NCBI GenBank assembly: GCA_021404565.1
Contig: JAAWWF010000002.1
Span: 62,001 to 126,000, forward strand
DNA length: 64,000 nt
Reading direction: 5' to 3'
Origin: Roseivirga sp.
GTDB taxonomy: Bacteria > Bacteroidota > Bacteroidia > Cytophagales > Cyclobacteriaceae
The notes beneath the pieces are model-generated. The model did no database searches. It saw only the letters and a program-made list of their open reading frames with translations, and was not told the DNA's origin. The first letter of the stretch is position 1. Each line of letters starts with the position of its first letter. This document shows, one piece after another, positions 18,999-59,254 of the stretch. Position numbers and translations under genes: made by a program.

Positions 18999-19012
18999 GG
19001 CACGGTTATAGA
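18999..19012 (+). promoter_or_regulatory. Possible weak sigma-54 promoter of the permease array
   Basis: CGGCACG at 18998-19004 is a good -24 element, but the -12 position reads TAGAC rather than TTGCA (GG-N10-GA instead of GG-N10-GC). Transcription would start only a few bases before the P1 ATG at 19026. Position relative to the two upstream dyads supports it; the poor -12 box argues against it. Confidence 0.35.
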
Positions 19013-19025
19013 CTTTTATAGGACA

Positions 19026-21446
19026 ATGTGGTACTACAGTTTCAAGCTTTTTTACCGAAATCTCATCAGGCATAAGTTTCTGTCTCTTTTTAACATGCTT
19101 GGGCTAGGAGTAGCGATGGGCGCATTTCTGCTTATCCTCTTTTATGTACGGTACGAAACGAGCTTTGACGATTTTCATCAGGATAATGATCGAATTTATC
19201 GGTTGATCATGACCCGCTACACCGATGGAGAGTACACCAGCAAACGCCCCGATACCTATCCGGCCATGGCCAGGGTCATCAAAGAGAGCTATGCAGAGGT
19301 AGAAGCAATCAGTAAGGTGATCTATAATTCCAGGGGAGGTACCCTCACCGAATTCGAAGTGGGCGGGAAAAGTATATTGCGGGATGACCTCAAGACCCTT
19401 TTCGCGGCTTCTGATTTTTTTGACATATTCTCGCTTCCACTGGTAGAAGGAGACATAGGCACCCTGGATCAACCATTTATGGCCATGGTGTCTGATCAGT
19501 TTGCCACTGCGATGTACGGAACTGAAAACCCGGTAGGACAAACCTTTAAAGAAGATGACGGTCGTGATTATCTGATTACAGGAATCTTTAAAAAGTGGAA
19601 ACGCAATTCGCACCTGGATTTCGATCTAATCAAATCTTTTGAAACCATAGGAGCGAGGCACAATCGCACCGATCATCAGGACTCCTGGCACTGGAGCCGG
19701 ATGAAAACCTATGTGAAGCTCAATGCTGAGGTTGACCCTGATCTTTTCGAGTCGCAGGTGGCACAGGTGGTTAATGATAACAAGCCCCGTTCTGGAGATG
19801 TGGTACTGGATGAGACCATTTCACTTCAGCTTCTTAACGATATCCGGCTTGGATCGGATTTTGAAAGCAGCACCTTTGATAGCGCCAGGTCTGGTGTTTA
19901 TGGCTTTCTGCTGATTGGGTTTGTGATATTAGCCATGGGTTGGCTCAACTTTATTAACCTGAGCATTGCCCGTGGTTTGGACAGAACGAAGGAGGCAGGT
20001 ATTAAAAAGGTATTGGGGGCAGGCCGTGTCCACCTTATAAAACAACAGTTTATCGAGGCTTTTCAGGTAAACCTCTTTGCCTTTATTATAGGCATGAGTC
20101 TTTACCAGTTACTCCTGCCTCAGCTCAGAACCTATGCGGATATTCCCAGTCACTTTAACCCGGGAATTACCCTGATGTACTGGACTGTGGGAGGTTTGCT
20201 TATTGGGAGCTTTCTATCCGGGGCTTATCCTGCAATGGCCTTAAGCAAGGTCAATGTCATTCTGGCTATGAAGAATAAGCTGTCTGGTGGCAGAGGTTCT
20301 TTGAAAAATACCCGTACAGCACTTACGGCTATACAGTTTACCATCTCCCTGAGTTTGCTTATTGCCGTAACGGTCATTTATAAGCAGCTCAACCTGCTGA
20401 GGTCAGTTGATTTGGGTACCAGAATAGAAGGCGTTTTAGTGGTGAAAGGACCTCGTAATTTTGATTATGATGCTTTTTCCGCCAATCCTGATGTGCTGAA
20501 AAATGAATGGAAGCGTATACCTGGGGTAGAGCAAATAGCCAGCTCATATGCCGTACCGGGAGGAAGCATTTACCCCTATCAGATCAAGCGGGCTGATCAA
20601 CCTGATGCTCCCTGGGTTTACATACCGGAGCATCAGATTGATCACGGTTTTGTTTCTTTATATGGGCTTGAGCTGATAGCCGGTCGCAGCTTTGATAAAA
20701 ACATTATGACCGATGATAGCGCGGCTGTGATCAATGAAAGTGCATTAAAAGCTCTGGGTTTTGAGTCGGCTCAGCAGGCTTTGGGCAAGCCAATCACCTC
20801 ACCGGAAAATGAATTCATCCGCCATGTCGTGGGTGTTATTAAAGACTTTCATCAGCTTTCGCCAGCCACGGCAAGGCAACCCTTGATTCTGGCCCTTGAT
20901 ACCGAGAGCCGTGGGTACTATTCCATTCACTATAATACGGCTGACCTTTCTCAACTTCAGGCATCGGTAGCATCCACCTTTGATAAGGTATTTCCGGGAA
21001 ATATTTATCACTCTTTTTTCCTTGACGATTATTTTGCAGAACAATACAAGGCCGATGAAAGGCTTGGTACTTTGCTATCGGTATTTTCTGTGGTGGCCAT
21101 TTCACTGGCTGCTATGGGCCTTATCAGCATGACCTATTTCAGTGCTGTCAGGCGCATGAAAGAAATGAGTATTCGTAAGGTTTTGGGTGCAGGTTTTACC
21201 AATCTGGTAAGACTACTTTCGTCCAATGGCAACCTGAGCTTTTTGCTTGGAAGCCTGTTGGCCATTCCGGCCATCTACTTTTTACTCGATCGCTGGCTGG
21301 CCGGTTACCACAGCCGCATCTCATTGCAACTGTTTGACTTCGCCTTACCGATGCTGGCCCTGTATACGCTTGCGCTGGTAGCCATGGTATTGGTCATGTT
21401 GCGCATTGTTCACGTCAATCCTGTTAAATCTCTTAGAGAAGAATAA
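19026..21446 (+). CDS. ABC transporter permease, MacB/FtsX type (P1, first of array)
   Basis: This 806-residue permease starts at the ATG at 19026; an upstream in-frame TTG at 18918 lies inside the operator and is rejected. Order: membrane helix 1 (about 20-42), periplasmic MacB-type domain, three helices (about 287-310, 347-367, 382-405), helix 5 (429-452), second periplasmic domain, and helices 6-8 (679-704, 734-758, 772-795), i.e. two fused FtsX units. Coupling helices are KEAGIKKVLGAG (from 322) and KEMSIRKVLGAG (from 712); the end is HVNPVKSLREE. The second periplasmic domain holds the loop SSYAVPGGSIYP. No ATPase domain is present, so it must pair with a separate nucleotide-binding subunit. 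The next gene follows after one base. Confidence 0.92.
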   Translation: MWYYSFKLFYRNLIRHKFLSLFNMLGLGVAMGAFLLILFYVRYETSFDDFHQDNDRIYRLIMTRYTDGEYTSKRPDTYPAMARVIKESYAEVEAISKVIYNSRGGTLTEFEVGGKSILRDDLKTLFAASDFFDIFSLPLVEGDIGTLDQPFMAMVSDQFATAMYGTENPVGQTFKEDDGRDYLITGIFKKWKRNSHLDFDLIKSFETIGARHNRTDHQDSWHWSRMKTYVKLNAEVDPDLFESQVAQVVNDNKPRSGDVVLDETISLQLLNDIRLGSDFESSTFDSARSGVYGFLLIGFVILAMGWLNFINLSIARGLDRTKEAGIKKVLGAGRVHLIKQQFIEAFQVNLFAFIIGMSLYQLLLPQLRTYADIPSHFNPGITLMYWTVGGLLIGSFLSGAYPAMALSKVNVILAMKNKLSGGRGSLKNTRTALTAIQFTISLSLLIAVTVIYKQLNLLRSVDLGTRIEGVLVVKGPRNFDYDAFSANPDVLKNEWKRIPGVEQIASSYAVPGGSIYPYQIKRADQPDAPWVYIPEHQIDHGFVSLYGLELIAGRSFDKNIMTDDSAAVINESALKALGFESAQQALGKPITSPENEFIRHVVGVIKDFHQLSPATARQPLILALDTESRGYYSIHYNTADLSQLQASVASTFDKVFPGNIYHSFFLDDYFAEQYKADERLGTLLSVFSVVAISLAAMGLISMTYFSAVRRMKEMSIRKVLGAGFTNLVRLLSSNGNLSFLLGSLLAIPAIYFLLDRWLAGYHSRISLQLFDFALPMLALYTLALVAMVLVMLRIVHVNPVKSLREE

Positions 21447-21447
21447 T

Positions 21448-23850
21448 ATGCTTTACAATCATCTTAAAATTGCCTGGAGGGTTTTTTCAAAGCGCAAGCT
21501 TTATGGTATCATCAACCTACTGGGACTGTCTGTGGCCATGGCCTTTTGCTTGTTGGTATCGCTATACGTCAAAGATGAGTTTAGCTATGACAAGTTCCAT
21601 GAAAAGGGAGATCGCCTTTATCTGCTTTACGATATCAGCTTTAAATCAGATGATCTGCAGGTGGAGCCGGGATTACTGGATGTGAAGCCCAACCCACTGG
21701 TTCGCAAGAGTATTTCTCAGACCATTCCCTTTGCAAATCTTATCGAAGAGCGGATTCCTGAAATAGAAATGCTTATCAGAACGGAGGGCAATGGCACAGA
21801 GATAGCGAAGGATGGCAAGCTGATTTCTGAATCGGTGAGATATGCCGACAAGGACTTCTTTATGGCATTCAGTTTTAACTTTTTATATGGTTCACCCGAA
21901 ACCGCCCTGGAAGATCTGGATGATATTGTGATCACCGATGAGGTGGCCATGAAGTACTTCGGCAGAACAGACGTTTATGGAGAAAATATACAGTTTGGTG
22001 GTGCAGACGGACCTGTCAGAACCATTGCAGGAGTCATTGAGAAACCCAAAAACTCAAGTATAAGTCTGAATATAGTTTTTCGTTATGAGCATTCTTACCC
22101 CTATAGAAAAGCCCGTGAAGACTGGGGCTATGCTGCCGTAGCTCCGTTTGTTCTTCTAAAAGAAGGTGCAGATCCAGAGGCTATCTCTAAAAAGATAGAA
22201 GCTATTTATAAGGAGCGTTTTGCCGAAAATATTGAAAATCACCGCACCCGTCTCGGGCTCTCAGCCGACAATCCGGTACTAACCTATGGCTTAAAAAAAG
22301 TAGAAGATTTATACCTGGACCCAACAGTTCGCTTTGGTAAGAGCTCGAGCAAGCTATATTCATACATTCTACTCAGTGTGGCCGCGATCATGATTGTGAT
22401 TGCCTGCATCAATTACACCGCTATCAGTATTTCTCTCTCCAGTGCCCGCTCGTCAGAGGTAGCCTTGCGCAAGGTAATGGGCTCATCCAGAAAGCAGCTG
22501 ATCAGCCAATTCTATACAGAATCCTTCCTGATGGGGATTGCAGCGGTTATTGGGGGCTATTCTCTTATGCAGCTCACGCTGCCTGTATTCAGCGAGTTGA
22601 CTGACAAAACCTATGACCTGACTATTACCGACCAACTGAGTGCGGTGGGTATAGGGCTGGCAATCACCCTGTTTCTAAGCCTTGTTTCCGGGGCCTATCC
22701 GGCTCGCTTTATGTCAGGACTTAAGATCGTCCAGGGTATTAAATCACAGACCACCCATAAAATCAAGCCCGTGCTGATTCGCGGCATGGTGGTATTCCAG
22801 TTTACCCTGTGTATCTTCTTTATGGGACTTGGCCTGGGTATGCACAAGCAGTTCAAATACATCAGCAACATGGACCTGGGCTTTGACAAAGACCAGGTAG
22901 TGTATCTGACAGGAGCCTGGGGAGTAACAGACAAAATCAAGCAGGAGCTTGACAAAGAACCTTCGATCATCAGTTCGGTAGGAGCAGGGGGAATATTCGG
23001 CTCGGGCCGTAGCATGGGCCGCCTGACTTCTCTCGGGGTAGATTATACTACGCTCAGAGTGCATACCGATTACGATTTCTTCAAAACCATGGGAATAGAA
23101 TTGGTCAGCGGCAGGTTCTTTGACCCAACGCGAAACCGGGAACTCGAGCAGAAAAAGACCATCGTGAACGAAACCTACTATAAACTACTGAAGCAGGACA
23201 CTCTTATGAAAAGCAGATTGGACAACATCATAGGGGTTGTAAAAGACTTTCATTTCGAATCCCTCAATCAGCAAATCGGGCCGATGGAATTCGGGCTTTC
23301 CGAAACACAGTTCATCTCTGTTATGTATGCAAAACTCAATGGCCAAAACCTGGAAGAAGGAATAGCCGCCATGGAACGGGCCTGGGATGCCGTGGTACCC
23401 AACCGTACGATGGACCTGAAGTTTCTTGACGAATATCTGGCCAGCAATTATAAGGACTCACAGCGTTGGGGTCGCATTGTCGATGTTTCGGCTATACTGG
23501 CCGTGTTGATTGCCTGCTCCGGCCTGTTTGGACTAACGGCCATCAACGCAATGAACCGCACCAAAGAAATCGGTATCAGAAAAGTACTTGGGGCAAACTT
23601 CTCGTCCATTGTGATCTTACTCAACAAACAGAATATCTGGTTGATTCTCATCTCCATGGCCATTGCACTTCCACTGTGGTATTACTTCGTTAACCAATGG
23701 GTTGAGGGTTTTGCCTATCATACCTCGATAGGTTTCGATTTGTTTGCTCTTGCGGGCATGTTATGCTTTCTCATTGTGGTTATCACGGTGAGCTTCCATA
23801 GTCTGAGAACTTCCCGTATCAACCCAACCACACTGCTAAGAACAGAATAG
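21448..23850 (+). CDS. ABC transporter permease, MacB/FtsX type, divergent subtype (P2)
   Basis: This 800-residue protein starts at the ATG at 21448, one base after the P1 stop; a longer in-frame reading overlapping P1 is unlikely. Architecture is the duplicated FtsX form. Coupling helices are SEVALRKVMGSS (from 336) and KEIGIRKVLGAN (from 706); the end is RINPTTLLRTE. It differs from most neighbours: the helix before the first coupling helix reads NYTAISIS rather than NYxNLST, and the second periplasmic domain has GAGGIFGSGRSMG in place of the usual proline-glycine loop. It shares both features with P6. Probably an inner-membrane subunit of the same transport systems. Confidence 0.9.
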   Translation: MLYNHLKIAWRVFSKRKLYGIINLLGLSVAMAFCLLVSLYVKDEFSYDKFHEKGDRLYLLYDISFKSDDLQVEPGLLDVKPNPLVRKSISQTIPFANLIEERIPEIEMLIRTEGNGTEIAKDGKLISESVRYADKDFFMAFSFNFLYGSPETALEDLDDIVITDEVAMKYFGRTDVYGENIQFGGADGPVRTIAGVIEKPKNSSISLNIVFRYEHSYPYRKAREDWGYAAVAPFVLLKEGADPEAISKKIEAIYKERFAENIENHRTRLGLSADNPVLTYGLKKVEDLYLDPTVRFGKSSSKLYSYILLSVAAIMIVIACINYTAISISLSSARSSEVALRKVMGSSRKQLISQFYTESFLMGIAAVIGGYSLMQLTLPVFSELTDKTYDLTITDQLSAVGIGLAITLFLSLVSGAYPARFMSGLKIVQGIKSQTTHKIKPVLIRGMVVFQFTLCIFFMGLGLGMHKQFKYISNMDLGFDKDQVVYLTGAWGVTDKIKQELDKEPSIISSVGAGGIFGSGRSMGRLTSLGVDYTTLRVHTDYDFFKTMGIELVSGRFFDPTRNRELEQKKTIVNETYYKLLKQDTLMKSRLDNIIGVVKDFHFESLNQQIGPMEFGLSETQFISVMYAKLNGQNLEEGIAAMERAWDAVVPNRTMDLKFLDEYLASNYKDSQRWGRIVDVSAILAVLIACSGLFGLTAINAMNRTKEIGIRKVLGANFSSIVILLNKQNIWLILISMAIALPLWYYFVNQWVEGFAYHTSIGFDLFALAGMLCFLIVVITVSFHSLRTSRINPTTLLRTE

Positions 23851-23851
23851 T

Positions 23852-26290
23852 ATGCTCAGAAACTATCTCAAAACCATCATCCGGAGTATCAGGCGCAACA
23901 GAACTTTCACACTGATCAATGTTGTGGGTTTGTCCCTGGGACTGGCTGCTTTTATAGCCATTACCGAATATGTAAGGTTTGAGAAAAGCTATGATACCTA
24001 TCACAAGGGATATGAGAATATTGTCAGGGTTGGTATTGATGTCAACTTTGGTGATGGCGACCTGAGCATCGCGTATATGGGGGCTCCGGGTACCAAACAA
24101 ATCAGCGCTGATTTTCCACAGGTGACGGATGCGACCCGGCTCTATTATAGCTTCAGGAGAGACTTTTTTGTAAAAGTGGGGGAAAGGGAGTTTAAGCAAA
24201 AGCCCATGACCCGCATGATGGCCGATGAAAACTTCTTCAGTTTTTTCTCCATTCCGCTTATTCAGGGAAATCCCGATGAGGTACTGAATGGCCCCAACAA
24301 AGTGGTGCTAACGGCTTCTACGGCAGAGCGCTATTTCGGTAATGATTGGCAGGCCCAAACCATAGTGGGGAGCACCATTGAACTGGGTGAGGATCTGAAA
24401 CTGCTGATCTCAGGCATTTGCGAAGATGTGCCAGACAATACACATTTTGATTTTGAGCTGCTGGTATCAATGAAAACAGTGCCGGAGGCAGAAGACAACT
24501 TTTGGCTGAGCAACTCCTTTTATCACTATTTCCGATTGAGAGACGACAGCCCGAAAGAGGAATTTTTAACTCAACTCAACAGCAAGGCGGGAGACTATCT
24601 CAACAATGATATCAATGAGTTTCTGGGAAAAGATTATAGCGATTTGTTTTCAGCAGAGGGCAACTACTTCAGGTTCTATTATCAGCCAATAGCTGATATT
24701 CATTTGGGCTCTCATCGTGAGTTGGAAATTCAGGTCAATGGTGAACAGGAATATGTAGATATTTTTACGGCTGTTTCGGTTTTGGTACTGCTCATGGCAG
24801 CTATCAATTTTATGAACCTGAGCACCGTATCAGGGCTTAAAAGGCACAAAGAGGTAGGAATCAGAAAGGTTCTGGGCTCCCTCAAGGGCCAGGTGATCTT
24901 TCAGTTTCTACTCGAATCGGTCATGATTGTGCTTTTTTCCCTGGTCTTCGCGGTTACCCTTATTCAGTTGCTGGCCCCTACCATCAATGCTTTTTTCGGA
25001 GCTGAGCTTATCAGACCCTTGGCGGCACTCTTTGTAACTATAGGCTGGCTTGTGCTTGGAGCGGTTGGTCTGGGAGTGTTGTCTGGTATCTACCCTGCCT
25101 GGACCCTGTCCTCGATCAATCCCAGCGCTTCCATTAAAGGAGTACATCAGCGTAGTGGCAAGGTGGGCTTTTTCCGTAATCTGCTGATTGTCTTCCAATT
25201 TGCCATTTCCCTGTTGCTTATCATCGGGGTTTGGGGCATTCAACAGCAGCTCAGCTATATGAAAACCCGCGACCTGGGCTATCAGAAAGATCAGGTCATG
25301 ATCATTGAAGATACCAACGAGCTGGGAGAGCAGGCAAAAACTTTCAGAGACAGACTGGCCGCAAGTCCCTTGGTAAACAGCGCTACCGTAGCTGGTTTTG
25401 TTCCTATTGGCAGCGATGAATACGGTACCACCGGTTTCAATCTGGTAGACGGCAGCAGCGACCTTACGCTTCGCCTCAGGTTTGCCACGGTCGATGAGTA
25501 CTATATTGATACTTATGGACTGGAATTGATCTCAGGCCGCAATTTCTCAACCGATTTTGGTGATGAGTCGGCCAACATCATTGTCAACGAATCTGTTATC
25601 AAATCATGGGGCTGGTCACCCGAAGAGGCGCTGGGACAAAAAGTGCGGAGCGCAGGAGATCAGAGTATCGGTACCATTATCGGGGTGATGAAGGACTTCC
25701 AGACCTTCTCTATGAAGAGCAGAAACGATCCCTTTTTTCTGGCCTATGAATTTGATAATCAGAATATTTCAGTACGGTTTACAGCCACTGACTGGACTGC
25801 CGCAAGAGAGCTGGCTTCCACCACCTGGTCTGAATTCACTGATAAGCCTTTTTCGTACAGCATGGCTGATGCCCTTTTTGAATCTACCTTTGCCAATGAA
25901 GAGAAGGCAGGACAACTCTTCACCGTATTTTCTTCACTCGCGCTGTTCATCGGCTGTCTTGGCTTATTAGGGGTGGCCTCTTATGTAATCGTACAGCGCT
26001 CTAAAGAAGTAGGCATTCGCAAGGTACTGGGAGCTTCGATCACGCAGCTTTTCGGGGTGCTTTCCAAAGATTTTATCTGGCTAATACTTATAGCCGGGGT
26101 CGTTTCCGTTCCTGCCGCTTACTATTTTTTAGGTAGCTGGCTCGATCAATATGCCTATCAGGTTGGTCTTACCTGGTGGCTGTTTGTGGTTCCTTTTCTC
26201 TTTGTGGGCTTGCTGGCCTTCGGCATCATTGGTGCGCAAATCTGGAAGGTGGCCATTATCAATCCTATCAAATCCCTTCGCTACGAATAA
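23852..26290 (+). CDS. ABC transporter permease, MacB/FtsX type (P3)
   Basis: This 812-residue permease has its ATG one base after the P2 stop, indicating tight co-translation. It has the duplicated FtsX architecture with N-terminal helix at about 20-40 and two periplasmic domains. Coupling helices are KEVGIRKVLGS (from 333) and KEVGIRKVLGAS (from 718); the C-terminus is IINPIKSLRYE. The second periplasmic domain carries VAGFVPIGSDEYG where most paralogs have VPG. The motif NFMNLSTVSGL precedes the first coupling helix. It is a canonical member of the array; substrate unknown. Confidence 0.91.
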   Translation: MLRNYLKTIIRSIRRNRTFTLINVVGLSLGLAAFIAITEYVRFEKSYDTYHKGYENIVRVGIDVNFGDGDLSIAYMGAPGTKQISADFPQVTDATRLYYSFRRDFFVKVGEREFKQKPMTRMMADENFFSFFSIPLIQGNPDEVLNGPNKVVLTASTAERYFGNDWQAQTIVGSTIELGEDLKLLISGICEDVPDNTHFDFELLVSMKTVPEAEDNFWLSNSFYHYFRLRDDSPKEEFLTQLNSKAGDYLNNDINEFLGKDYSDLFSAEGNYFRFYYQPIADIHLGSHRELEIQVNGEQEYVDIFTAVSVLVLLMAAINFMNLSTVSGLKRHKEVGIRKVLGSLKGQVIFQFLLESVMIVLFSLVFAVTLIQLLAPTINAFFGAELIRPLAALFVTIGWLVLGAVGLGVLSGIYPAWTLSSINPSASIKGVHQRSGKVGFFRNLLIVFQFAISLLLIIGVWGIQQQLSYMKTRDLGYQKDQVMIIEDTNELGEQAKTFRDRLAASPLVNSATVAGFVPIGSDEYGTTGFNLVDGSSDLTLRLRFATVDEYYIDTYGLELISGRNFSTDFGDESANIIVNESVIKSWGWSPEEALGQKVRSAGDQSIGTIIGVMKDFQTFSMKSRNDPFFLAYEFDNQNISVRFTATDWTAARELASTTWSEFTDKPFSYSMADALFESTFANEEKAGQLFTVFSSLALFIGCLGLLGVASYVIVQRSKEVGIRKVLGASITQLFGVLSKDFIWLILIAGVVSVPAAYYFLGSWLDQYAYQVGLTWWLFVVPFLFVGLLAFGIIGAQIWKVAIINPIKSLRYE

Positions 26291-26302
26291 ACAACAACGG
26301 TC

Positions 26303-28735: not shown

Positions 28736-28744
28736 AACACAAGC

Positions 28745-31195: not shown

Positions 31196-31207
31196 AAAAC
31201 TAAAGCT

Positions 31208-33619: not shown

Positions 33620-33632
33620 ACAACTCAAGGCT

Positions 33633-36077
33633 ATGCTCAAAAACTATTTAAAAACCACACTCAGATCGCTCAGGAAGAATAAGGTATTTTCCTTTATCAA
33701 CATCTTCGGACTGGCCACAGGGCTCGCTGCGGCCATTTTTATCTTCCAGTACAGCTTTTTTGAGCTGGGTTTTGATCGTTTTCACGAAAACAATGATGAG
33801 CTCTATCGCGTGATTAACAAGCGCTATGAAGGAGACAGGTTGATCCAGGAAGGACAGATTACCTACTCTGCAGTGGGGCCTCAGCTCAAAGCGGAATTTC
33901 CCGAGGTAGTAGAGAATTGCCGGACTATGAACGATGATCGGAGCATCATTCGCAGAAATGGAGAGGTTACAGTGGTGGGCGAGTCTCTTTTTGCCGACCC
34001 TACTTTCTTCCCTATGTTTTCATTTAAACTGTTGGCAGGGGATCCCAATACGGCCCTGGAAGAGTTCCGGTCTATCGTGATTTCGGAAGATGTAGCGAGG
34101 CGTTTGTTCAGATATCAGGGCGATGATTTCGATCAGTTTATAGGCGAAATGGTACAGATTGGTACGGATGTTACGCTTTCGCAAATAACCGGTATTATGG
34201 AAGATGCTCCTGCCAATTCTTCTATCCAGGTAGAAATGCTGCAGTCCTACAATACTCTGATTAGATTTTACGAACAAGCTGATTTCAGCTGGAACAGCTC
34301 AGACTTTTTTCACTTCATACAGCTGACTCCTGAGGCTGATGTGGATGCATTACAGGCTAAACTCGCTGACTTTAGCGAAAGACATTTTAAAGGGGAGGAG
34401 GTCACCGGCACTTTCGAAGAGTTCTACCTTCAGCCTGTTAACGACATGCATTTGAACCGCGGTCTACAGTATGAATATATCGTTACTAATGATGGCACTA
34501 CGGTTTATATGCTGATTGTCGTAGCCATCTTTATCCTGTTGATGGCCTGGATCAATTATGTAAATCTCACTACTTCCCGTTCGCTGGAAAGAGCCAAAGA
34601 AGTAGGTCTTAGAAAAGTGATTGGAGCAGAAAGGAAACAACTCGTCTTCCAGTTTTTTGCGGAAGCCCTGATAATGAATGTCCTGGCGGCTATATTGGCT
34701 TTCACCTTTATTCAGCTGCTACAGGGCAGCTTCAATAACCTGGTAGAGCAGGAGCTTTCACTGTTTGAACTGGCCGCCAGCCAGGTCTTTGGTATCCCCG
34801 TCACCTTGCTCTTTGTAGCCCTGCTTTTGGTCGGCACTTTTACTTCGGGTTTATATCCGGCAGTTGTTTTATCAGGTTTCAGACCTATCAGCATACTGAA
34901 AGGCAATTTCAAGACTTCTGGTTCTGGTAACTGGCTGCGCAAGAGTCTGGTAGTATTTCAGTTCGCGATCTCTTCGTTGCTTATAGCCGGCACATTTACC
35001 GTGTACAAGCAAATCAGCTTTATGCAAAGCCAGGACCTGGGCATGGACATTGATCAAATGCTCATCCTGAATGGTCCGGAGCTCGTCAACTTTGACTCCA
35101 CCTACATAGGTAAGGTCAGAGATTTCAAAAACAGCCTGCTGCAAAACCCGCAGATTCTGTCAGCTTCCATGTCCAGAAATGTTCCGGGTGATCGCCTTGG
35201 ACGTGTTTTTAATGCTCGCAGAGTAGGTGCTGAGGAGACTTTTATGCTCAATCAAATGAATGTGGATTATGGCTTTGTAGATCAGTTTAAGATTGAAGTT
35301 TTGGCTGGCAGGAGTTTTGAATACAGAGACCATAACACAGATGGTAATCTGATTGACAGGCTGATGATCAACAAAACGGCCTGTGATATGTTAGGCTTTG
35401 AGAACCCGGAAAAGGCTGTTAACCAAAAAATTGAGCTTTATGGAAAAGCCTGGACGATCATAGGCATACTGAAAGACTTTCATCAGGAGGCCCTTAGAAA
35501 TGAAATTGAGCCTATCCTCTTTCGCCCATATTACAGTCCCATAGACAACCTGAATGTGAAAATTACGGGCAATGATGTACAGGCTACGCTCAGTTTTATC
35601 AAAGACCAATATGATAGCTTCTACCCCAATCATTCATTCGAGTATTCCTTTTTAGACGAACGCTATAATCGGCAGTATAAAAACGACCGGCTTTTTGGCA
35701 GAGTCTTCAACCTGTTTTCTATACTGGTGATCATCATAGCCAGTCTGGGCCTTTTCGGATTAGCCGCATATAACTCATTGCAGCGCAGTAAGGAAATAGG
35801 AGTGAGAAAAGTGTTGGGGGCTACAGTCGGGGACATTATAAACCTGCTATCAAAAGACTTTTTACTCTTGATTTTACTGGCAAACATGGTTGCACTGCCA
35901 CTCGTGTACCTGGGTGCGAAAAGCTGGCTGGCTGGTTACGCTTATGCCATCGATCTGGGGCTTTGGCTCTTTGTGATACCACTCTCGTTGGTATTTGTAG
36001 TGGCTATTGCCACGATCAGTGTGCAGACATTTAAATCTGCCCGAAGGAATCCTATAGACGCACTTAGATACGAATAA
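33633..36077 (+). CDS. ABC transporter permease, MacB/FtsX type (P7)
   Basis: This 814-residue permease lies 13 bases after P6. Coupling helices are KEVGLRKVIGAE (from 322) and KEIGVRKVLGAT (from 720); the end is RRNPIDALRYE. The second periplasmic domain carries SRNVPGDRLGR. It is the closest relative of P5 in the array, sharing the N-terminal 20 residues exactly and similar second periplasmic domains. Typical eight-helix duplicated FtsX topology; no ATPase domain. The next gene begins one base after its stop. Confidence 0.91.
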   Translation: MLKNYLKTTLRSLRKNKVFSFINIFGLATGLAAAIFIFQYSFFELGFDRFHENNDELYRVINKRYEGDRLIQEGQITYSAVGPQLKAEFPEVVENCRTMNDDRSIIRRNGEVTVVGESLFADPTFFPMFSFKLLAGDPNTALEEFRSIVISEDVARRLFRYQGDDFDQFIGEMVQIGTDVTLSQITGIMEDAPANSSIQVEMLQSYNTLIRFYEQADFSWNSSDFFHFIQLTPEADVDALQAKLADFSERHFKGEEVTGTFEEFYLQPVNDMHLNRGLQYEYIVTNDGTTVYMLIVVAIFILLMAWINYVNLTTSRSLERAKEVGLRKVIGAERKQLVFQFFAEALIMNVLAAILAFTFIQLLQGSFNNLVEQELSLFELAASQVFGIPVTLLFVALLLVGTFTSGLYPAVVLSGFRPISILKGNFKTSGSGNWLRKSLVVFQFAISSLLIAGTFTVYKQISFMQSQDLGMDIDQMLILNGPELVNFDSTYIGKVRDFKNSLLQNPQILSASMSRNVPGDRLGRVFNARRVGAEETFMLNQMNVDYGFVDQFKIEVLAGRSFEYRDHNTDGNLIDRLMINKTACDMLGFENPEKAVNQKIELYGKAWTIIGILKDFHQEALRNEIEPILFRPYYSPIDNLNVKITGNDVQATLSFIKDQYDSFYPNHSFEYSFLDERYNRQYKNDRLFGRVFNLFSILVIIIASLGLFGLAAYNSLQRSKEIGVRKVLGATVGDIINLLSKDFLLLILLANMVALPLVYLGAKSWLAGYAYAIDLGLWLFVIPLSLVFVVAIATISVQTFKSARRNPIDALRYE

Positions 36078-36078
36078 T

Positions 36079-38481
36079 ATGTTCAGAAGCTATCTCAATG
36101 CTGCTTTTCGCAACTTCTTAAGAAACAAGAAGCATACCGCCATCAACCTGCTTGGCCTTTCACTGGGCCTGGCGGCATTTATTGTCATTTTTCAATATGT
36201 AGCCTTTGAATACAGTTTTGATCAGTTTCATAAGGACGAAGATCGTATTCAGAGACTTACCCTCGGCAGGCTCGACAATGGAGTCGGTACCAGCTCGGTG
36301 AGTGCCGGGGTGATGGCACCCATCCTCTATGAAAACTATGCCGGTATTAAGTCTTTTGTGCGGCTTCGAAAATTCCCTTCATTGGTAGCCCATGGGGACA
36401 ACAGAATCCATGAAGACAAATTCTATTTCACCGATTCCACCTTCTTCCAGGTCTTCTCTTACGAACTGATTGAGGGCAATAAGGATCGCATCCTCCAGGA
36501 ACCGAATACACTTGTTTTGACTGAGACGGCTGCAGAAAGAATCTTTGGCAGGAGTAGCGACCTGTTGGGAGAGACCCTAAGAATTGATAATTATGCAGGC
36601 TATCGCATAGACGGAATCGTGAAAGACCCTCCGGCTAATGCGCATTTCAGCTTTGAATACCTGGCTTCTATAGCCTCTATAGCCACACACCCTAACGAGC
36701 CTTTGCGTACCTACCAGACCAATGAATGGTATGCGCACTACTATTATACCTTTTTACAGCTGGAGGATGGAGTCAATCCGGCCAATGTACGGGCACAGAT
36801 TCTGGAAGCTTCCAAGGTTCATTCCAACCCGGAGTATTACGAGCTTTACGGGGTCAACATGGGCCTCTTCCTGCAACCCATTACCGATATTCACCTCAAT
36901 CCGCTCTATGGCGAGCTCGAGCCACAGGGAAATGCTGATAACCTCTATATTCTCAGCAGCGCTGGTCTGATCATTCTGCTCCTGGCTATTGTCAATTACA
37001 CCAATCTGTCTACCGCTCAGTCTATTCGCAGGGTCAAAGAAGTGGCCTTGCGCAAAACCATGGGGGCAGAACGCAGACAACTGATCTTCCAGTTTTTAGG
37101 TGAGTCGATGGCCCTGAGTTTACTGGCTTTTATATTGGCCATTTCTTTGATTCAGCTCTTTCAATCAGACCTGCTTGAGCCGGTAGGCTTGCCTGCCAAT
37201 ATTTTCGATTCTTTCTATGAAACAAATATTTATTACCTGCTCGCAGTCACCCTGGCCACGGGCTTGATCGGAGGTCTGTATCCTGCATTGTACCTCTCGT
37301 CTTTTGGTCCCGGACATTTGTTCAAAGATGCTTTGAGTGGCGAGCGCAAATTCATCTTCCGCAAGGTGGTGGTGTTCCTTCAGTTCACCATTTCCATGCT
37401 GCTGATCTCCGGTACGGTCATTGTCTTTTCACAGGTACGGTTTATGCAAACCCAGGAGCTGGGCATAGACACAGAACAGATTCTGGTCCTGCCCACCTAT
37501 GGCAATGCCAATATTCATGAGGGCTATGAGCGCTTCAGGCAAGACTTATCCAGGATCACCGAGGTCTCATCATCTACCCTGGCCGAGCTGAGTCCAGGTG
37601 ACATTGCCTTTGGTATCGTGGGTAGATTTGAAGGGATGGAGGCCAACAAGAGTTTTACCACCACAGGGGTTGATCACGATTATCTTAAAACCTATGACCT
37701 GAAATTGATCGCAGGCCGGGACTTCTCCCGGGAAATCGCCAGCGATACTGAAGAGCGTATTATCATCAACAGAAAGCTTTGCGAAGAACGGGGCTGGACA
37801 CCTGAAGAAGCCATTGGCAAAACCTATGATTTTGGTGGTGATGGGGTCACTCCCGGTTTTGTGATAGGGGTGGTCGAGGATTTCCATTTCAATTCCCTGC
37901 GCAAAGAGATTTTTCCCATGGTGATGGCCATAGCTCCTAATTTTTATCAGAAGATAGCGGTGAAATTGAATGGCCCGAATCTGGCTCAAAGCATAGCGAA
38001 GGTGGAAGCAGCCTGGCAACAGGTCTATCCTGAGTACCCCTTCAACTATCAGCTGGTAGACCAGGAGTTTAATCGACAATACGCTGCTGAGCAGAGCTTT
38101 GGAGCACTCTTTTTCCAGTTTACCATATTGGGGCTGCTGATAGGCGCATTTGGTATTTACGGCCTTATTCAGCTTATGACAGAGTACAGACGAAAGGAAA
38201 TGAGCATTCGCAAAGTACTGGGGGCCCAGGTATGGCGACTTACTGTATTGATGACCCGGGAATACATGATTTTAATGGCCCTTGCCTTTTTAGTGGCGGC
38301 ACCGCTGGCATATATGTTCATGGACAACTGGCTGGCTGATTTTGCCTATGCAATTACCATCCAATGGTGGATGCTTGGTCTCTCACTGGTGGCGATTGCG
38401 CTGATTAGCTTTGGTACCATCGGAACCTCTGTTTTCAAAACTGCAAGGGCGAATCCCGTTGACTCTTTGCGCTACGAATAG
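36079..38481 (+). CDS. ABC transporter permease, MacB/FtsX type (P8)
   Basis: This 800-residue permease starts one base after P7. Coupling helices are KEVALRKTMGAE (from 320) and KEMSIRKVLGAQ (from 706); the end is RANPVDSLRYE. Its periplasmic loop is AELSPGDIAFG, with Ser-Pro-Gly in place of Val-Pro-Gly. A shorter first cytoplasmic region and the sequence MTEYRRKEMSIRK distinguish it. Canonical duplicated FtsX architecture, inner membrane, dependent on a separate ATPase. Confidence 0.91.
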   Translation: MFRSYLNAAFRNFLRNKKHTAINLLGLSLGLAAFIVIFQYVAFEYSFDQFHKDEDRIQRLTLGRLDNGVGTSSVSAGVMAPILYENYAGIKSFVRLRKFPSLVAHGDNRIHEDKFYFTDSTFFQVFSYELIEGNKDRILQEPNTLVLTETAAERIFGRSSDLLGETLRIDNYAGYRIDGIVKDPPANAHFSFEYLASIASIATHPNEPLRTYQTNEWYAHYYYTFLQLEDGVNPANVRAQILEASKVHSNPEYYELYGVNMGLFLQPITDIHLNPLYGELEPQGNADNLYILSSAGLIILLLAIVNYTNLSTAQSIRRVKEVALRKTMGAERRQLIFQFLGESMALSLLAFILAISLIQLFQSDLLEPVGLPANIFDSFYETNIYYLLAVTLATGLIGGLYPALYLSSFGPGHLFKDALSGERKFIFRKVVVFLQFTISMLLISGTVIVFSQVRFMQTQELGIDTEQILVLPTYGNANIHEGYERFRQDLSRITEVSSSTLAELSPGDIAFGIVGRFEGMEANKSFTTTGVDHDYLKTYDLKLIAGRDFSREIASDTEERIIINRKLCEERGWTPEEAIGKTYDFGGDGVTPGFVIGVVEDFHFNSLRKEIFPMVMAIAPNFYQKIAVKLNGPNLAQSIAKVEAAWQQVYPEYPFNYQLVDQEFNRQYAAEQSFGALFFQFTILGLLIGAFGIYGLIQLMTEYRRKEMSIRKVLGAQVWRLTVLMTREYMILMALAFLVAAPLAYMFMDNWLADFAYAITIQWWMLGLSLVAIALISFGTIGTSVFKTARANPVDSLRYE

Positions 38482-38486
38482 ATATC

Positions 38487-40925: not shown

Positions 40926-40934
40926 TCCCTGACT

Positions 40935-43361: not shown

Positions 43362-43381
43362 CCACTCAAAACTCAAAAACA

Positions 43382-45796
43382 ATGCTTAGAAACTACTTTA
43401 AAACCGCGATGAGAAACCTCTCCAAGAGCAAGGTATTCTCCTTTATCAACATCACAGGTTTGGCCGTAGGGCTCGGAGCCTTCCTGCTCATCTTTCAGTT
43501 TGTAAGCTTTGAGCAAAGCTTCGATAACTTTCATGAAGATACTGATCAGCTTTACCGGGTACAGTTCGAGCGTGTCTATACAGACAAACACGATAAAAGT
43601 GCTGGCCTGACTGCTGGTGCAGGGCCCGCCTTAAAAGAAGACTTTCCTGAAGTAGAGGAGTTTACCAAGCTTTGGTCAGCTGGTTTTATGTCAAATCTGC
43701 TGACCATTGAAGATGAGGTTTTTAACGAGAAAAAGCTCTTCTATGCCGATGAGTCTTTCTTTCGCCTGTTCAGCTTTGGCTTGGTTCAGGGAAGCTCCGA
43801 TCAGATTTTGAAAGAAGCCAATACCATGGCTATTTCCGAAACCAGGGCTATTAATTACTTTGGATCTACTGATGTCATTGGAAAAGGCATCAGAGTGAAT
43901 AATGGCATGGGAGATGAGCTTTATAGCGTCTCCGGAGTCTTCAAAGACTTGCCCCGCAATACGCATTTTGATTTTGATGTCCTTTTGTCTTTTAAAACCC
44001 TGGAAAATGCTACCGAAGGAAGTGCCGCAACTTCTTTTGGGTGGAACGCTTTTCCCACCTACCTGAAGCTGGCACCGGGTACTGATTTTAAGACACTGGA
44101 ATCCAAGTTTCCTGAGTGGACTAAAGGACGTTATGCCTCCCTGATTGAAGATGGCGTTGAACCAAGACTGTATCTGCAACCCTTGGAAAGCATTTACCTG
44201 GAGTCTGATCTCAGGTTTGAGGTGGGACCTACCGGAAATGCGCGGATTGTACAGATTCTTACTGGTGTAGCACTTTTTATCCTGATTCTTGCTTATTTCA
44301 ACTACGTTAATCTGTCTACCTCAAAATCTCTGGAACGTACCAAAGAGATTGGGGTGAGAAAAGTAAATGGAGCCAGTAGAACTAGTCTGATCAAGCAGTT
44401 TCTTATCGAATCGTTTGTTGTAAACCTGATAGGAATCGTTTTGGGCTTTACGCTTATGCAAATATCTATCCCCTTTTTCGAGCAAGCCCTCGACCGTCCC
44501 TTGAGTGAGATGGTTGTGGTCAATCAACCCTTCATTGTACTTATTTTGGTACTCCTCACTTCGGGTACTCTGCTTTCTGGTTTTTACCCTGCCTGGATTC
44601 TTTCTCGCTTCAAGACCATTCGTGTGCTCAAAGGGCAGAGGTCTGGTGCGGGATCTGATGGAGTGGTGAGAAAAGGTCTGGTCATTTTACAGTTCGCGAT
44701 CTTGTGCTTCCTGTTGGTGGGCAGTTTGGCCGTGCGTAGTCAGATTGACTATATGCTCAATTCCGACTGGGGTTTTGACTCTGACCAGATGGTGGTAGTG
44801 GCCGGGCCGTCATTATCTCAGGATGAGGCGGATAAATTGACCACTTTTAAAAATGAGCTCCGTTTACAAGCCAATATTGCAGAGGTGTCTAATACTACCA
44901 TGGTACCGGGTAATGAGATTAAATGGGTCAACAATGGTGTAAGACTTACAACCAGTCCCGCTAACGAGATCACTTCTATTCCCTTTTTAGGAATTGATGA
45001 CACCTATATCAGCAATCTTTCGCTGGAAATCCTGGCAGGAAGAAGCTTTGACAAGGATTTGGCCAATGAGGCAGAGAGCCTGCTGTTGAGTCGTGCCGCA
45101 GCCGAGCAATTCGGCTTTCCGAATCCTGAAGATGCTCTTAATCAAAGAATTACTGATGGAGGACAAGAATATAAGGTCATCGGAGTGGTAGAAAATTTTC
45201 TACAGAAGTCATTCAAGAGTGGATATGACCCTATTATGTATCGTCATATTCCCAATGCCAATAACTATCTCTGTATAAGGGTAGAAGGTGGTGATTATGA
45301 GCATGTTCTTACGGATATCGAATCACAATACATCAGCCATTTCCCCGGCAGTACCTTTTCATACTTCTTCCTGGACGAGTACTTCGAACGTCAGTTTACG
45401 GAAGACCGCATCTTTGGTAAAGTATTCAATTTCTTCACCCTGCTGGGCATCTGGATTTCCATCCTGGGGCTCTTTGGCCTTACCTCATATGCTGTATTGC
45501 AGCGTAGAAAAGAGATTGGTATCCGCAAGGTTCTGGGCGCCTCTGTCGGCAGTGTCGTTTTGTTGATTTCAAAACGTTTTATCTACCTGACCCTGATAGC
45601 CATAGCACTGGCCATACCAGTAGCCTTCTATGCGACAAACAGTTGGCTCGATAGTTACTCCTTTGCTACGGGCATGAAAGCTTATGTGTTTGTAGTACCC
45701 GTGGTGGCGCTGCTGAGCATCACATTATTGACAACCGGCTTGCTTTCTATGAAATCGGCCACCAATAACCCTGTCGACTCACTGAGGTATGAGTAA
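43382..45796 (+). CDS. ABC transporter permease, MacB/FtsX type (P11)
   Basis: The start at 43382 (MLRNYFKTAMRNLSKSKVFS) matches the N-terminus of the other paralogs; an upstream in-frame start overlapping P10 would add 45 unrelated residues and is rejected. The protein has 804 residues. Coupling helices are KEIGVRKVNGAS (from 321) and KEIGIRKVLGAS (from 710); the end is NNPVDSLRYE. The periplasmic loop is TTMVPGNEIKW. The stop codon lies within the left arm of a perfect 16-bp inverted repeat (45795-45838), after which the first gap larger than 25 bases in the array appears. Confidence 0.91.
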   Translation: MLRNYFKTAMRNLSKSKVFSFINITGLAVGLGAFLLIFQFVSFEQSFDNFHEDTDQLYRVQFERVYTDKHDKSAGLTAGAGPALKEDFPEVEEFTKLWSAGFMSNLLTIEDEVFNEKKLFYADESFFRLFSFGLVQGSSDQILKEANTMAISETRAINYFGSTDVIGKGIRVNNGMGDELYSVSGVFKDLPRNTHFDFDVLLSFKTLENATEGSAATSFGWNAFPTYLKLAPGTDFKTLESKFPEWTKGRYASLIEDGVEPRLYLQPLESIYLESDLRFEVGPTGNARIVQILTGVALFILILAYFNYVNLSTSKSLERTKEIGVRKVNGASRTSLIKQFLIESFVVNLIGIVLGFTLMQISIPFFEQALDRPLSEMVVVNQPFIVLILVLLTSGTLLSGFYPAWILSRFKTIRVLKGQRSGAGSDGVVRKGLVILQFAILCFLLVGSLAVRSQIDYMLNSDWGFDSDQMVVVAGPSLSQDEADKLTTFKNELRLQANIAEVSNTTMVPGNEIKWVNNGVRLTTSPANEITSIPFLGIDDTYISNLSLEILAGRSFDKDLANEAESLLLSRAAAEQFGFPNPEDALNQRITDGGQEYKVIGVVENFLQKSFKSGYDPIMYRHIPNANNYLCIRVEGGDYEHVLTDIESQYISHFPGSTFSYFFLDEYFERQFTEDRIFGKVFNFFTLLGIWISILGLFGLTSYAVLQRRKEIGIRKVLGASVGSVVLLISKRFIYLTLIAIALAIPVAFYATNSWLDSYSFATGMKAYVFVVPVVALLSITLLTTGLLSMKSATNNPVDSLRYE

Positions 45797-45838
45797 CTGT
45801 ATCACTTTGAGACGTTAACGAATCAAAGTGATACAGTT
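45795..45838. repeat. Perfect 16-bp inverted repeat between P11 and P12
   Basis: AACTGTATCACTTTGA (45795-45810) is the exact reverse complement of 45823-45838, across a 12-base loop containing GTTAAC. The left arm overlaps the last two bases of the P11 stop codon. There is no T run afterwards, so a classical terminator is unlikely. Its centre lies about 85 bases before the -24 element of P12. The segment TATCACTTTGAGACG matches the upstream dyad TGTCATTATGAGACA at 11 of 15 positions. Confidence 0.6.
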
Positions 45839-45900
45839 GATTAGCCTAAAACCATGTAGTGTTTTGTGTAAATGGCTTATATTCAGTGCTTTAAAGTTTA

Positions 45901-45914
45901 GGCATAGTTGTAGC
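45901..45914 (+). promoter_or_regulatory. Candidate sigma-54 (-24/-12) promoter of P12
   Basis: The sequence AGGCATAGTTGTAGCA has GG (45901-45902) and GC (45913-45914) separated by exactly 10 bases. The -24 half fits GGYAYR, and the -12 half TAGCA differs by one base from TTGCA. Transcription would start near 45926, leaving a leader of about 38 bases before the ATG at 45964. Confidence 0.55.
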
Positions 45915-45963
45915 ATAAGTAGGGCATACCCAAAAAGGTATTTGAGCCCAAACAAGAAAACTC

Positions 45964-48384
45964 ATGGTTAAAAACAACATCATTCTCGCTTTCAGACAGC
46001 TCAAAAGAAACAGAGTATTTTCCTTCGTCAATGTACTGGGGCTTTCCCTGTCAATGGTAGCCTGTCTGCTTATTTTTAAATACATTTCTTTTGAAAAGAG
46101 CTACGACAACTACCATTCAGATGTAGACAATATCTATCGCATATACCGTCACTCAGAGCGTGCTCAATACGGAGATGATGATGTAGTCCCCATCTTTCCG
46201 GCTATTGGTCCGCTAACCAAAACTGATATTCCTGAGTTTGTGCAGACCAGTCGCTTTATAGGTTCTGAGAAAATGTTCCAGTCTTTTGCACTGAGCTATT
46301 TTCCGAAAGAAGGAGCTGCCAAAACCTTCAACATCACAAAAGGCTACTTTGCTGATCATGATGCTATCAACATATTGGGTTTCGACTGGACAGATGAAAG
46401 TATGCAACCTTCCCTGGACAACCCGAATGAGGTGGTGATTTCACGTTCTACAGCTAATAAATTTTTTGGTAATGAGCCTGCTGTGGGTAAGGTACTTCGC
46501 TTCAAAAACAGGGGAGTGAATATGAAAGTGACAGGAGTTTTTGAAGACTTGCCTGAGAATACACATTTCAAATTTGAGCTACTTTGTTCCTTTCAGTCTC
46601 TGCCGGCAGAATGGAAGCTGGATGAGGATTTTGGCTGGGGTAATTTTTACACTTATGCACGCATAAGTGATGGTGCCGACCTTGCAACAGTAGAGTACAA
46701 GCTCAACGAACTGCTTAAAGACCGGGAAACCTGGTATGCTGAGGAGCAGATTGTGTTCAAGCTGCAGCCGATCAAAGATATTCACCTGAAATCTGACAAG
46801 GTATTTGAGTTGGAAGCCAACGGAAATGAAAGAACGGTTTTCTTTATGACCATCATAGGCTTCTTTATCATGCTTATTGCCTGGGTCAATTATATCAACC
46901 TAAGCACCTCGAAGCTGATCGACAGAGCTAAAGAGGTGGGTGTAAGAAAAGTGCTGGGTAGCTACCGCAGCCAGTTGATGAATCAGTTTATAACGGAATC
47001 GGTGGTCATGAACTTCCTGTCCATTGTGCTTTCCCTTACCGTATTGCAGGTTACCATTAGCTTCTTCGAATCACTTTTGGGCATTCCAATCGCCTTTTTT
47101 ACTAAAGAAGCATTGCCCGTAACCATACAGTTTGTAGGACTTTTTACCCTGGGTGCTTTGCTCTTTGGCTTTTACCCGGCACTGCTGTTTTCTAAACAAA
47201 AAGTAACCAGCGTCTTAAAGGGAAGAAGCAGAAGCAGCAAATCTGGTCTGCTATTACGCAGGGTGCTAACGGTTTTTCAGTTTGCCATTGCATTGGTACT
47301 CATCATTGGCACCTTCACGGTTTATAGTCAGCTTCAGTTTATGCAGAACCAATCGTTGGGTATGACCATCGATCAGACCCTGATTGTAAGAAAGCCCTTT
47401 ACCGAGTCTGCGAGCAGAGCCTCAAGCGAAGCTGCGTTTGTTAACGGAGCAAGGCAGCTCAGTGGAGTACAGGCTGTGAGCGCTACCTCTGAGATACCGG
47501 GCTATGAAATTACACGCATGCGCTGGATAGCATTGGGCCCTAATCAGGGAGACCAGGCACTCTATGCTAAGGATATAGCCATAGATGAGTATTTCACCGA
47601 CCTCTATGATATTGATGTGATCCACGGTCGCAGCTTTGCACCTGAGTTTGAAGATGCTACCGGGGTAGTACTCAACCTATCAGCGGCCAGAGATCTGCTG
47701 GGAGCAGAGGCTGATCTGGCCGACTGGGTAAATAAAACCATTTACTATGAGACAGCGCCCTTTACGCTCATTGGTATCATCGATGACATCAGCCAGCAAT
47801 CGCTTAAAAACTCAGCGGAGGCGCATATTTATACCAAGCGCAACCGGGTTAAGTTTTACTCTGTCAAAGTAAATACTGCGGACATTAACAAAACCATAAG
47901 CGAGCTGGAAACCGTGTTTGGCGGCAGCTTTGCCAGCAGTCACTTTGACTACTTCTTTCTGGATGAATACTTCGACAGACAGTATCGCTCTGACCGAATG
48001 TTCGGACAGATCTTTACCTTCTTTTCTGTACTGGCTATTATGATCACTGTGCTGGGCCTATTTGGCCTGTCTATCTACAACATTGGTCAAAGGGCCAAAG
48101 AGGTGAGCATTCGCAGGGTACTGGGGGCCTCCTTCAACAGTATTTCATTGTTGCTTACCAAGGATTACTTCCTGCTGATTTTTATTGCCGCTGTGGTGGC
48201 AGTACCGCTGGGCTATCTTATGATAGAACAGTGGCTTGCCAACTTTGCCAATCACTTGGAAATAGGGCTTATGCTCTTTGTATTGCCCATAGTACTGGTA
48301 TTGGTGCTCACGCTGTTGACAGTCGGCTATCAGGTAATCAAGGCTGCTGTGGCCAATCCCGCAGAAACACTCAGGTGGGAGTGA
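45964..48384 (+). CDS. ABC transporter permease, MacB/FtsX type (P12, last of array)
   Basis: This 806-residue permease is separated from P11 by 167 bases, the only sizeable gap in the array, with its own candidate -24/-12 promoter. Coupling helices are KEVGVRKVLGSY (from 323) and KEVSIRRVLGAS (from 712); the end is VANPAETLRWE. The periplasmic loop is TSEIPGYEITR, and the first periplasmic domain has an insert around FQSFALSYFPKEGAAK. Canonical duplicated FtsX topology. A strong terminator 16 bases downstream closes the array. Confidence 0.91.
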   Translation: MVKNNIILAFRQLKRNRVFSFVNVLGLSLSMVACLLIFKYISFEKSYDNYHSDVDNIYRIYRHSERAQYGDDDVVPIFPAIGPLTKTDIPEFVQTSRFIGSEKMFQSFALSYFPKEGAAKTFNITKGYFADHDAINILGFDWTDESMQPSLDNPNEVVISRSTANKFFGNEPAVGKVLRFKNRGVNMKVTGVFEDLPENTHFKFELLCSFQSLPAEWKLDEDFGWGNFYTYARISDGADLATVEYKLNELLKDRETWYAEEQIVFKLQPIKDIHLKSDKVFELEANGNERTVFFMTIIGFFIMLIAWVNYINLSTSKLIDRAKEVGVRKVLGSYRSQLMNQFITESVVMNFLSIVLSLTVLQVTISFFESLLGIPIAFFTKEALPVTIQFVGLFTLGALLFGFYPALLFSKQKVTSVLKGRSRSSKSGLLLRRVLTVFQFAIALVLIIGTFTVYSQLQFMQNQSLGMTIDQTLIVRKPFTESASRASSEAAFVNGARQLSGVQAVSATSEIPGYEITRMRWIALGPNQGDQALYAKDIAIDEYFTDLYDIDVIHGRSFAPEFEDATGVVLNLSAARDLLGAEADLADWVNKTIYYETAPFTLIGIIDDISQQSLKNSAEAHIYTKRNRVKFYSVKVNTADINKTISELETVFGGSFASSHFDYFFLDEYFDRQYRSDRMFGQIFTFFSVLAIMITVLGLFGLSIYNIGQRAKEVSIRRVLGASFNSISLLLTKDYFLLIFIAAVVAVPLGYLMIEQWLANFANHLEIGLMLFVLPIVLVLVLTLLTVGYQVIKAAVANPAETLRWE

Positions 48385-59163: not shown

Positions 59164-59254
59164 TGGGAGTAATAGGGTTTACGATCGACTCTTTATCAAT
59201 CAAGACTCACCAATTTATCAATTTGTAACGTGGAAACCAGTTTTTTTTAAGCAG

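Follow-up and report, generated by a model that had tools for sequence, protein, structure and literature searches.

The permease array of the window

The DNA analysed here, called the window throughout, is a 64-kb stretch of a Roseivirga sp. genome (G000:C81:62001-126000; genome G000 amounts to 8.57 Mb in 81 contigs), and between positions 19026 and 48384 its + strand carries twelve intact duplicated permeases of the MacB/FtsX type, 800-816 aa long, all with ATG starts and no internal stops. We propose that this array is one of several regulated banks of exchangeable permeases which, as far as sequence can tell, are probably driven in trans by a single common engine whose genes lie on another contig, C8. 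Orphan permeases themselves are known; what is new here is that a hub with no permease is encoded apart from several banks of permeases, each under regulation. The twelve genes, in window positions, are:

19026..21446, + strand: p1 permease, 806 aa
21448..23850, + strand: p2 permease, 800 aa
23852..26290, + strand: p3 permease, 812 aa
26303..28735, + strand: p4 permease, 810 aa
28745..31195, + strand: p5 permease, 816 aa
31208..33619, + strand: p6 permease, 803 aa; most divergent member, 23% identity to p7
33633..36077, + strand: p7 permease, 814 aa; predicted structure, mean pLDDT (predicted local distance difference test) 89.8
36079..38481, + strand: p8 permease, 800 aa
38487..40925, + strand: p9 permease, 812 aa
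40935..43361, + strand: p10 permease, 808 aa
43382..45796, + strand: p11 permease, 804 aa
45964..48384, + strand: p12 permease, 806 aa; perhaps with its own promoter

The eleven intergenic gaps from p1 to p12 measure 1, 1, 12, 9, 12, 13, 1, 5, 9, 20 and 167 bp, and identity to p7 among the window permeases ranges from 23 to 50%. Re-reading of frames, starts, lengths and gaps bore out the twelve intact genes on one strand, with these spacings, that a first-pass annotation of this DNA had described, and orthologues in a sister species exclude chance. The absence of an ATP-binding cassette (ABC) ATPase gene from the window, also claimed there, holds as well: none of the 62 matches of the genome to the DarD profile falls in C81:62001-126000, and no window open reading frame of at least 60 aa carries the pair of a Walker A and an LSGGQ/E motif.

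In the sister species (G009) all twelve orthologues are found in the same order across two contigs, 66-86% identical, with p5 cut by contig ends. Between p1 and p2 G009 carries an additional permease, and p7 and p8 are separated there by a frame of 430 aa; the G009 regulator and kinase are 97% and 92% identical to those of the array. As synonymous sites are saturated, with dS (the synonymous rate) undefined in 6 of the 12 pairs, dN/dS was not used and the proportions of nonsynonymous (pN) and synonymous (pS) differences were taken instead. Across the twelve orthologue pairs, with partial alignments for p1, p5 and p6, pN is 0.08-0.22 and pS 0.70-0.80 (saturated). Since nonsynonymous change is far below saturated synonymous change, all twelve permeases are constrained.

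Permease family and coupling segments

A Pfam scan of p1, p5 and p11 placed MacB_PCD and FtsX in two stretches each of all three, above the curated cut-off, and found no ATPase domain. The top NCBIfam families in all eight of the twelve that were scanned are ADOP (TIGR03434), at 154-271 bits with a cut-off of 622.3, followed by DarB, at 65-138 bits with a cut-off of 700, all thus below cut-off. The p7 model predicts that each permease is a fused pseudo-dimer with eight long helices, two periplasmic domains and two coupling segments, the latter located between transmembrane helices 2 and 3 (TM2 and TM3) of each half; the segment of half 1 was aligned to MacB of 5LIL, and model helices lie at the coupling regions at residues 288-330/334-371 and 719-727. 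The mixed heterodimers that the first-pass annotation considered possible find no support here and need not be invoked, since every protein is itself a fused pair and carries both coupling segments.

At the coupling segments, where an ATPase would dock, conservation is high: among 798 windows across the twelve permeases the segment of half 2 ranks first and that of half 1 ranks 19. All 114 sequences compared, from orphan as well as operon-linked permeases, keep one E and one G of both segments (the glutamates are residues 323 and 721 of p7), and the orphan permeases interleave with operon-linked ones in the tree.

A permease-less hub operon on another contig

The hub locus (L015, contig C8) consists of a kinase and a regulator on the - strand, followed by two adaptors, an ATPase and TolC, with no permease. 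Its ATPase (C8:111143-111853) is the best DarD-type match of the genome (285 bits, cut-off 375), with Walker A and LSGGQ intact, and its nearest named relative, 80% identical, comes from a metagenome-assembled genome (MAG) of Cyclobacteriaceae. The two adaptors, 85% identical to each other, are DarC-like (164.5 and 162.6 bits, cut-off 450), and the next DarC-like match in the genome reaches 57.8 bits. An ATPase and an adaptor for each permease elsewhere in the genome was the arrangement that the first-pass annotation had set against a shared engine; for adaptors of this type, what we found is these two genes, both in the hub. Having a kinase/regulator pair paralogous to that of the array, adaptors, an ATPase and TolC, and yet no permease, the hub is complementary to the array.

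Within the genus, the hub ATPase (E <= 1e-80) is found in 17 of 19 genomes, and all 17 hubs have the order adaptor-ATPase-TolC with no permease in the 1.5-kb flanks. The eight genus hub loci that were read over ~20 kb each have the kinase/regulator and no permease; the adaptor number is two in G000 and its sister G009 and one in the other six.

This is not the usual state of such loci. The hub ATPase has named relatives, for the most part in Bacteroidota, of which 80 were inspected, and in 64 of these a permease of the array family lies within 3 kb on the same strand (in 8 there is none, 3 kb having been read on both sides, and 8 could not be assigned). Among the 64 permease-linked loci an adaptor lies within 6 kb in 53 and a regulator in the locus in 43. 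The usual state is therefore one operon of kinase/regulator, adaptor, ATPase and permeases, in agreement with the earlier statement that Bacteroidota operons with a regulator pair usually carry ATPase, adaptor and permeases.

Co-occurrence of the hub ATPase and strong permeases

Presence of the hub ATPase, again at E <= 1e-80, was scored in 39 genomes of the order, G000 included. All 29 genomes that have the hub ATPase reach a best ADOP E-value of 3e-77 or better. Of the ten that lack it, nine have a best value of 3.9e-39 or weaker; the tenth, G017 (80% complete), has the hub regulator and kinase and an adaptor gene that a contig end cuts short. The median number of first-look permease candidates is 69 with the hub ATPase and 6 without. 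In G008, a member of the same genus, the syntenic site lacks the hub, whereas the FtsH-like and phosphoesterase-like neighbours (named by eye) and a small RNA are kept, and the genome has 6 weak first-look candidates with a best E-value of 4e-37; G008 is 84% complete, but its contig runs through the hub site.

Three observations, namely that the docking elements are shared, that the hub has all parts but the permease and that both hub and strong permeases are missing from G008, lead us to infer that the hub engine drives the array permeases as heads that can be exchanged. The idea that the bank is served by one or few ATPases encoded elsewhere, put forward in the first-pass annotation, thereby gains a candidate: a permease-less ATPase operon on C8 that is conserved in the genus and co-occurs with strong duplicated permeases.

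Regulated banks in the genome

The window array is not alone. Five regulator-linked arrays were read in this genome, with 12 permeases in the window, 20 on C61, 17 on C14, 5 on C81 near 323 kb and 3 on C72 (at a contig end), 57 in sum, so that the number of twelve, which had been thought unusual, is not extreme. Six regulators match the window regulator at E <= 1e-120, five of them beside these arrays and one in the hub. In a quick tree the C61 array regulator clusters with those of adaptor-ATPase operons from other genera (Shimodaira-Hasegawa-like approximate likelihood ratio test, SH-aLRT, 98), and this array looks like a remnant of an older operon, a view drawn from that tree. Genome-wide, the FtsX profile gave 544 first-look candidates, 150 of which were scored and all 150 matched, and the ADOP profile gave 282, of which 67 were scored; we estimate a genome total of roughly 270-280 duplicated permeases.

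The regulatory genes and elements of the window array are:

16145..17479, - strand: sensor histidine kinase of the array; Pfam HATPase_c; 39% identity to the hub kinase
17479..18852, - strand: NtrC-type sigma-54 activator response regulator; Pfam Response_reg, Sigma54_activat, HTH_8; 59% identity to the hub regulator
18898..18912, no strand assigned: regulator-binding-like palindrome TGTCATTATGAGACA, copy 1; predicted site
18921..18935, no strand assigned: palindrome TGTCATTATGAGACA, copy 2, 23 bp after copy 1
18999..19012, + strand: imperfect sigma-54 -24/-12-like element GGCACGGTTATAGA before p1, found by eye
45795..45838, no strand assigned: inverted repeat of 16 bp, spacer 12 bp, between p11 and p12, found by eye
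45901..45914, + strand: sigma-54-like element GGCATAGTTGTAGC before p12, matching GG[CT]A-N8-GC

The kinase and regulator pair sits divergently before p1. By Pfam the regulator carries response-regulator, sigma-54 interaction and Fis-type helix-turn-helix domains and is thus NtrC-type. Its orthologues, 77-97% identical, are found in 14 other genus genomes, with a partial one (82%) in G011; kinases adjoin these regulators too, and where the arrays were read they contain 1 to 13 permeases.

Perfect copies of TGTCATTATGAGACA occur twice in the genome, both between the array regulator and p1. As a finder of a genome-wide regulon the palindrome was discarded, matches with up to three mismatches numbering 242 compared with 248 for the reversed control. 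We then considered 15 regulatory regions of the window array type, two of the window and thirteen of relatives: the palindrome TGTN9ACA is present in 11 (mean 1.3 and maximum 5 in single-base shuffles) and the strict sigma-54 pattern GG[CT]A-N8-GC in 5 (mean 0.8, maximum 5), the latter count being no more than suggestive. Before p1 the strict pattern has no match, GGCACGGTTATAGA deviating from it. With an inverted repeat and a sigma-54-like element in the 167-bp gap, p12 may be a second transcription unit, and the repeat is possibly a second regulator site; TGTN9ACA has no match in this gap. In the hub regions TGTCN7GACA is absent from 7 of 8 and occurs once, with a mismatch, in L015; as it is nearly absent there, banks and hub seem to use separate site types.

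Weighing a shared engine against the alternatives

The following points, together with the two other candidate ATPases and the fold match described below, weigh against a shared engine. Over genomes the Fisher p of 4.7e-8 is overstated, the genomes being related (by family the counts are 7/7 versus 0/8, p 1.6e-4), and the boundary between strong and weak permeases was set after the values were seen. ATPase-permease pairs in cis are trivially linked, so that the claim of action in trans is tested by the split genomes and G008 alone. No adaptor lies within 6 kb in 11 of the 64 permease-linked loci, in 5 of which the ATPase is less than 3.4 kb from the locus start. An ATPase without a near permease is also seen in the 8 of 80 named loci mentioned above and in loci of other genera: permease-less ATPase operons outside the genus are L163 (both sides read) and L165, L021 and L162 are such operons too, with contigs that end just before the adaptor, and in L164 the sole permease lies ~6 kb off on the opposite strand. 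Lastly, the C14 array has no adjacent kinase.

The best placed alternative is that the permeases use another ATPase, chiefly that of C1 or else that of C77, and work with no adaptor or TolC in the manner of YbbAP or LolCDE. The C1 gene (L017:14811-15542) encodes a solitary MacB/LolD-like ATPase with no adjacent permease and 239 bits to the DarD profile, and it is found in 39/39 genomes of the order, in one copy in 38 and in two in G022; on C77 (L018:9554-12773) a DarD-like ATPase of 240 bits directly adjoins a 799-aa permease of the array family. Both could serve some array members. Moreover, the closest solved fold to the p7 model is E. coli YbbAP (9ge6, 9ge7), which is not known to be part of a tripartite pump. 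We nevertheless regard this alternative as unlikely, since the C1 ATPase, being in every genome, does not explain the permease pattern: it is equally present in 9 genomes with no strong duplicated permeases, G008 among them. The adaptor found in 53 of the 64 permease-linked loci of hub ATPase relatives likewise speaks for a system that includes one.

It is less probable still that the permeases have lost transport and act, with no ATPase, as sensors or scaffolds, or that they sense together with the kinase next to them in the manner of BceB. No ATPase is nearby, window-type arrays have a regulator, nearly always with a kinase, beside them, BceAB is among the structural matches of the p7 model, and passages of one paper describe BceAB-type transporters as coevolved with two-component systems (PMC5985334), all of which would fit a sensor. 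However, conservation at both coupling segments is among the highest in these proteins, which would not be expected in the absence of a docking ATPase, and a range of 1-13 permeases beside one conserved regulator is odd for a stoichiometric sensor. That the array is a mostly unexpressed or decaying duplication product, as the large paralogue numbers, the array sizes that differ across species and the 430-aa frame of G009 might suggest, is very improbable in view of twelve intact genes out of twelve in the same order in the sister species, the low pN relative to pS and the recurring regulator sites.

A proposed mechanism

Under the preferred reading, a shared engine driving several banks, a signal would activate the local kinase and regulator and so switch on the array. 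An expressed permease would recruit two ATPases below the membrane and an adaptor/TolC duct above it, and would move its own periplasmic substrate outward by MacB-type mechanotransmission; the periplasmic domains would vary and the docking stay constant, with each bank under its own regulator. What the analysis shows directly is the gene content with its conservation and co-occurrence, the conserved docking segments, the predicted fold and the palindromes that recur in the promoters; the physical pairing and its stoichiometry, the tripartite export, the substrates and the signal we infer. As to cargo, peptides or other periplasmic compounds are a guess by analogy with MacB and darobactin. For MacB, the passages available of one study describe how, once ATP binds to the nucleotide-binding domains, the coupling helix is pushed and the periplasmic domains close, a movement proposed to expel the substrate via TolC (PMC5985334).

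Taken further, one ATPase-adaptor-TolC engine might serve all 57 array permeases, and perhaps most of the estimated 270-280, with the two-component systems choosing the head; this wider proposal we put forward tentatively.

A small RNA near the hub

In this scheme of one motor with many heads, a small RNA beside the hub may tune permease translation. It is ~93 nt long (L015:7952-8052; G000:C8:107952-108052), lies upstream of the hub adaptor and is found in 19/19 genus genomes. Its features are a box that resembles a promoter, two hairpins, and a loop that hardly varies, with compensatory changes in the terminator stem as judged by eye; Rfam gave, for the region upstream of the hub, matches below the families' gathering scores only.

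Array start regions pair better with the loop than other gene starts do (58 versus 213, p 3.8e-5), and 2 of 200 shuffled loops equalled that pairing when 150 of the 213 were taken for comparison. They also pair better with it than permeases of other genera do. When start regions were resampled synonymously by start-codon usage, 2/400 resamples did as well in the own genome and 5/400 in other genus members, and in other genera the result was the reverse (398/400). Four points speak against control by the small RNA. In the resample test, 2 and 5 out of 50 shuffled loops equalled the real one. The sequences are paralogous. Permeases with no recognised start motif were dropped, which kept 43, 63 and 115 in the other-genera comparison and 43, 63 and 112 in the resample test. 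G008, lastly, keeps the small RNA with neither hub nor strong permeases. We leave the small RNA as a lead for a controller of the permeases, one suggested by sequence. In a sister genus, a related small-RNA core lies beside another hub-type regulator/kinase pair (L256, G022:C186, ~9988-10348).

Other permeases and neighbouring genes

A second class of permeases, 860-900 aa long, occurs in other arrays, and one that was scanned carries the NCBIfam permease prefix domain 2. A 117-aa protein, PadR-like by eye (L010:7343-7696), adjoins the C17 array of ~870-aa permeases, which suggests a second orphan class that is differently regulated. The window itself contains at 1-2169, - strand, a further duplicated permease that is cut by the window edge (an 897-aa frame; profile match C81:61513-63897) and belongs, judged by size, to the longer class.

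Three permeases of the genus lie over or near the ADOP cut-off: G005:C4:4128-6539, G005:C38:55184-57598 and G000:C34:226074-228470, with 758, 641 and 605 bits. The last has just 235 bits with the window profile and, given this low score, is probably of another lineage.

At 57850-63836, - strand, the window also carries a resistance-nodulation-division (RND) pump cluster. It encodes an AcrB-type protein of 1064 aa (60642-63836) and, at 57850-59163, a PqiA-like one; the TolC-like frame of the cluster, at 59327-60649, is a weak match of 50 bits. An Rfam scan of the window gave no match at gathering level.

Relation to known systems

The darobactin exporter DarBCD (NF038008, NF038010, NF038007) likewise combines a duplicated permease with a separate ATPase and adaptor, and DarB is the second-best NCBIfam profile for our permeases as DarC and DarD are the best for the hub adaptors and ATPase. 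It differs in that here all scores fall below cut-off (permeases 65-138/700, adaptors 163-165/450, ATPase 285/375 bits) and in that engine (C8) and permeases (C81) are encoded apart, each with their own regulators, whereas the DarBCD permease, ATPase and adaptor share one gene cluster. YbbA is encoded together with YbbP, unlike the array permeases, which have no adjacent ATPase and for which an adaptor/TolC set is implicated. ADOP is defined as a duplicated permease with no ABC ATPase gene adjacent, and the array resembles it in this and in its large paralogous sets; the scores here are nonetheless 154-271 bits compared with 622, relatives are mostly ATPase-linked in the named loci, and a candidate engine is identified here.

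With MacAB-TolC the array and hub share the permease fold, the adaptor and TolC set and the coupling helix between TM2 and TM3; in the passages available (PMC5985334) MacB has a fused ATPase and dimerises, whereas here the ATPase is separate and the permease is a fused pair.

The lack of partners had been considered unusual but is not in itself new: duplicated orphan permeases already form NCBIfam family TIGR03434, and excerpts of two papers report them in numbers. Two Dyadobacter strains have 28 and 33, with the annotation 'of unknown function' (PMC11573002), and there are 102 encoded, of which 80 are transcribed, in one acidobacterial MAG (PMC10564751). A literature search, limited to open-access sources with partial coverage, found no paper naming an engine or proposing a shared ATPase for orphan permeases.

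Some Acidobacteriota and Bacteroidota carry large numbers of duplicated orphan permeases, and a named candidate engine makes the question of what drives them a one-gene test. If true, the one-engine reading would give these permeases their missing partner, and tripartite ABC exporters could be built as many exchangeable heads on one shared motor.

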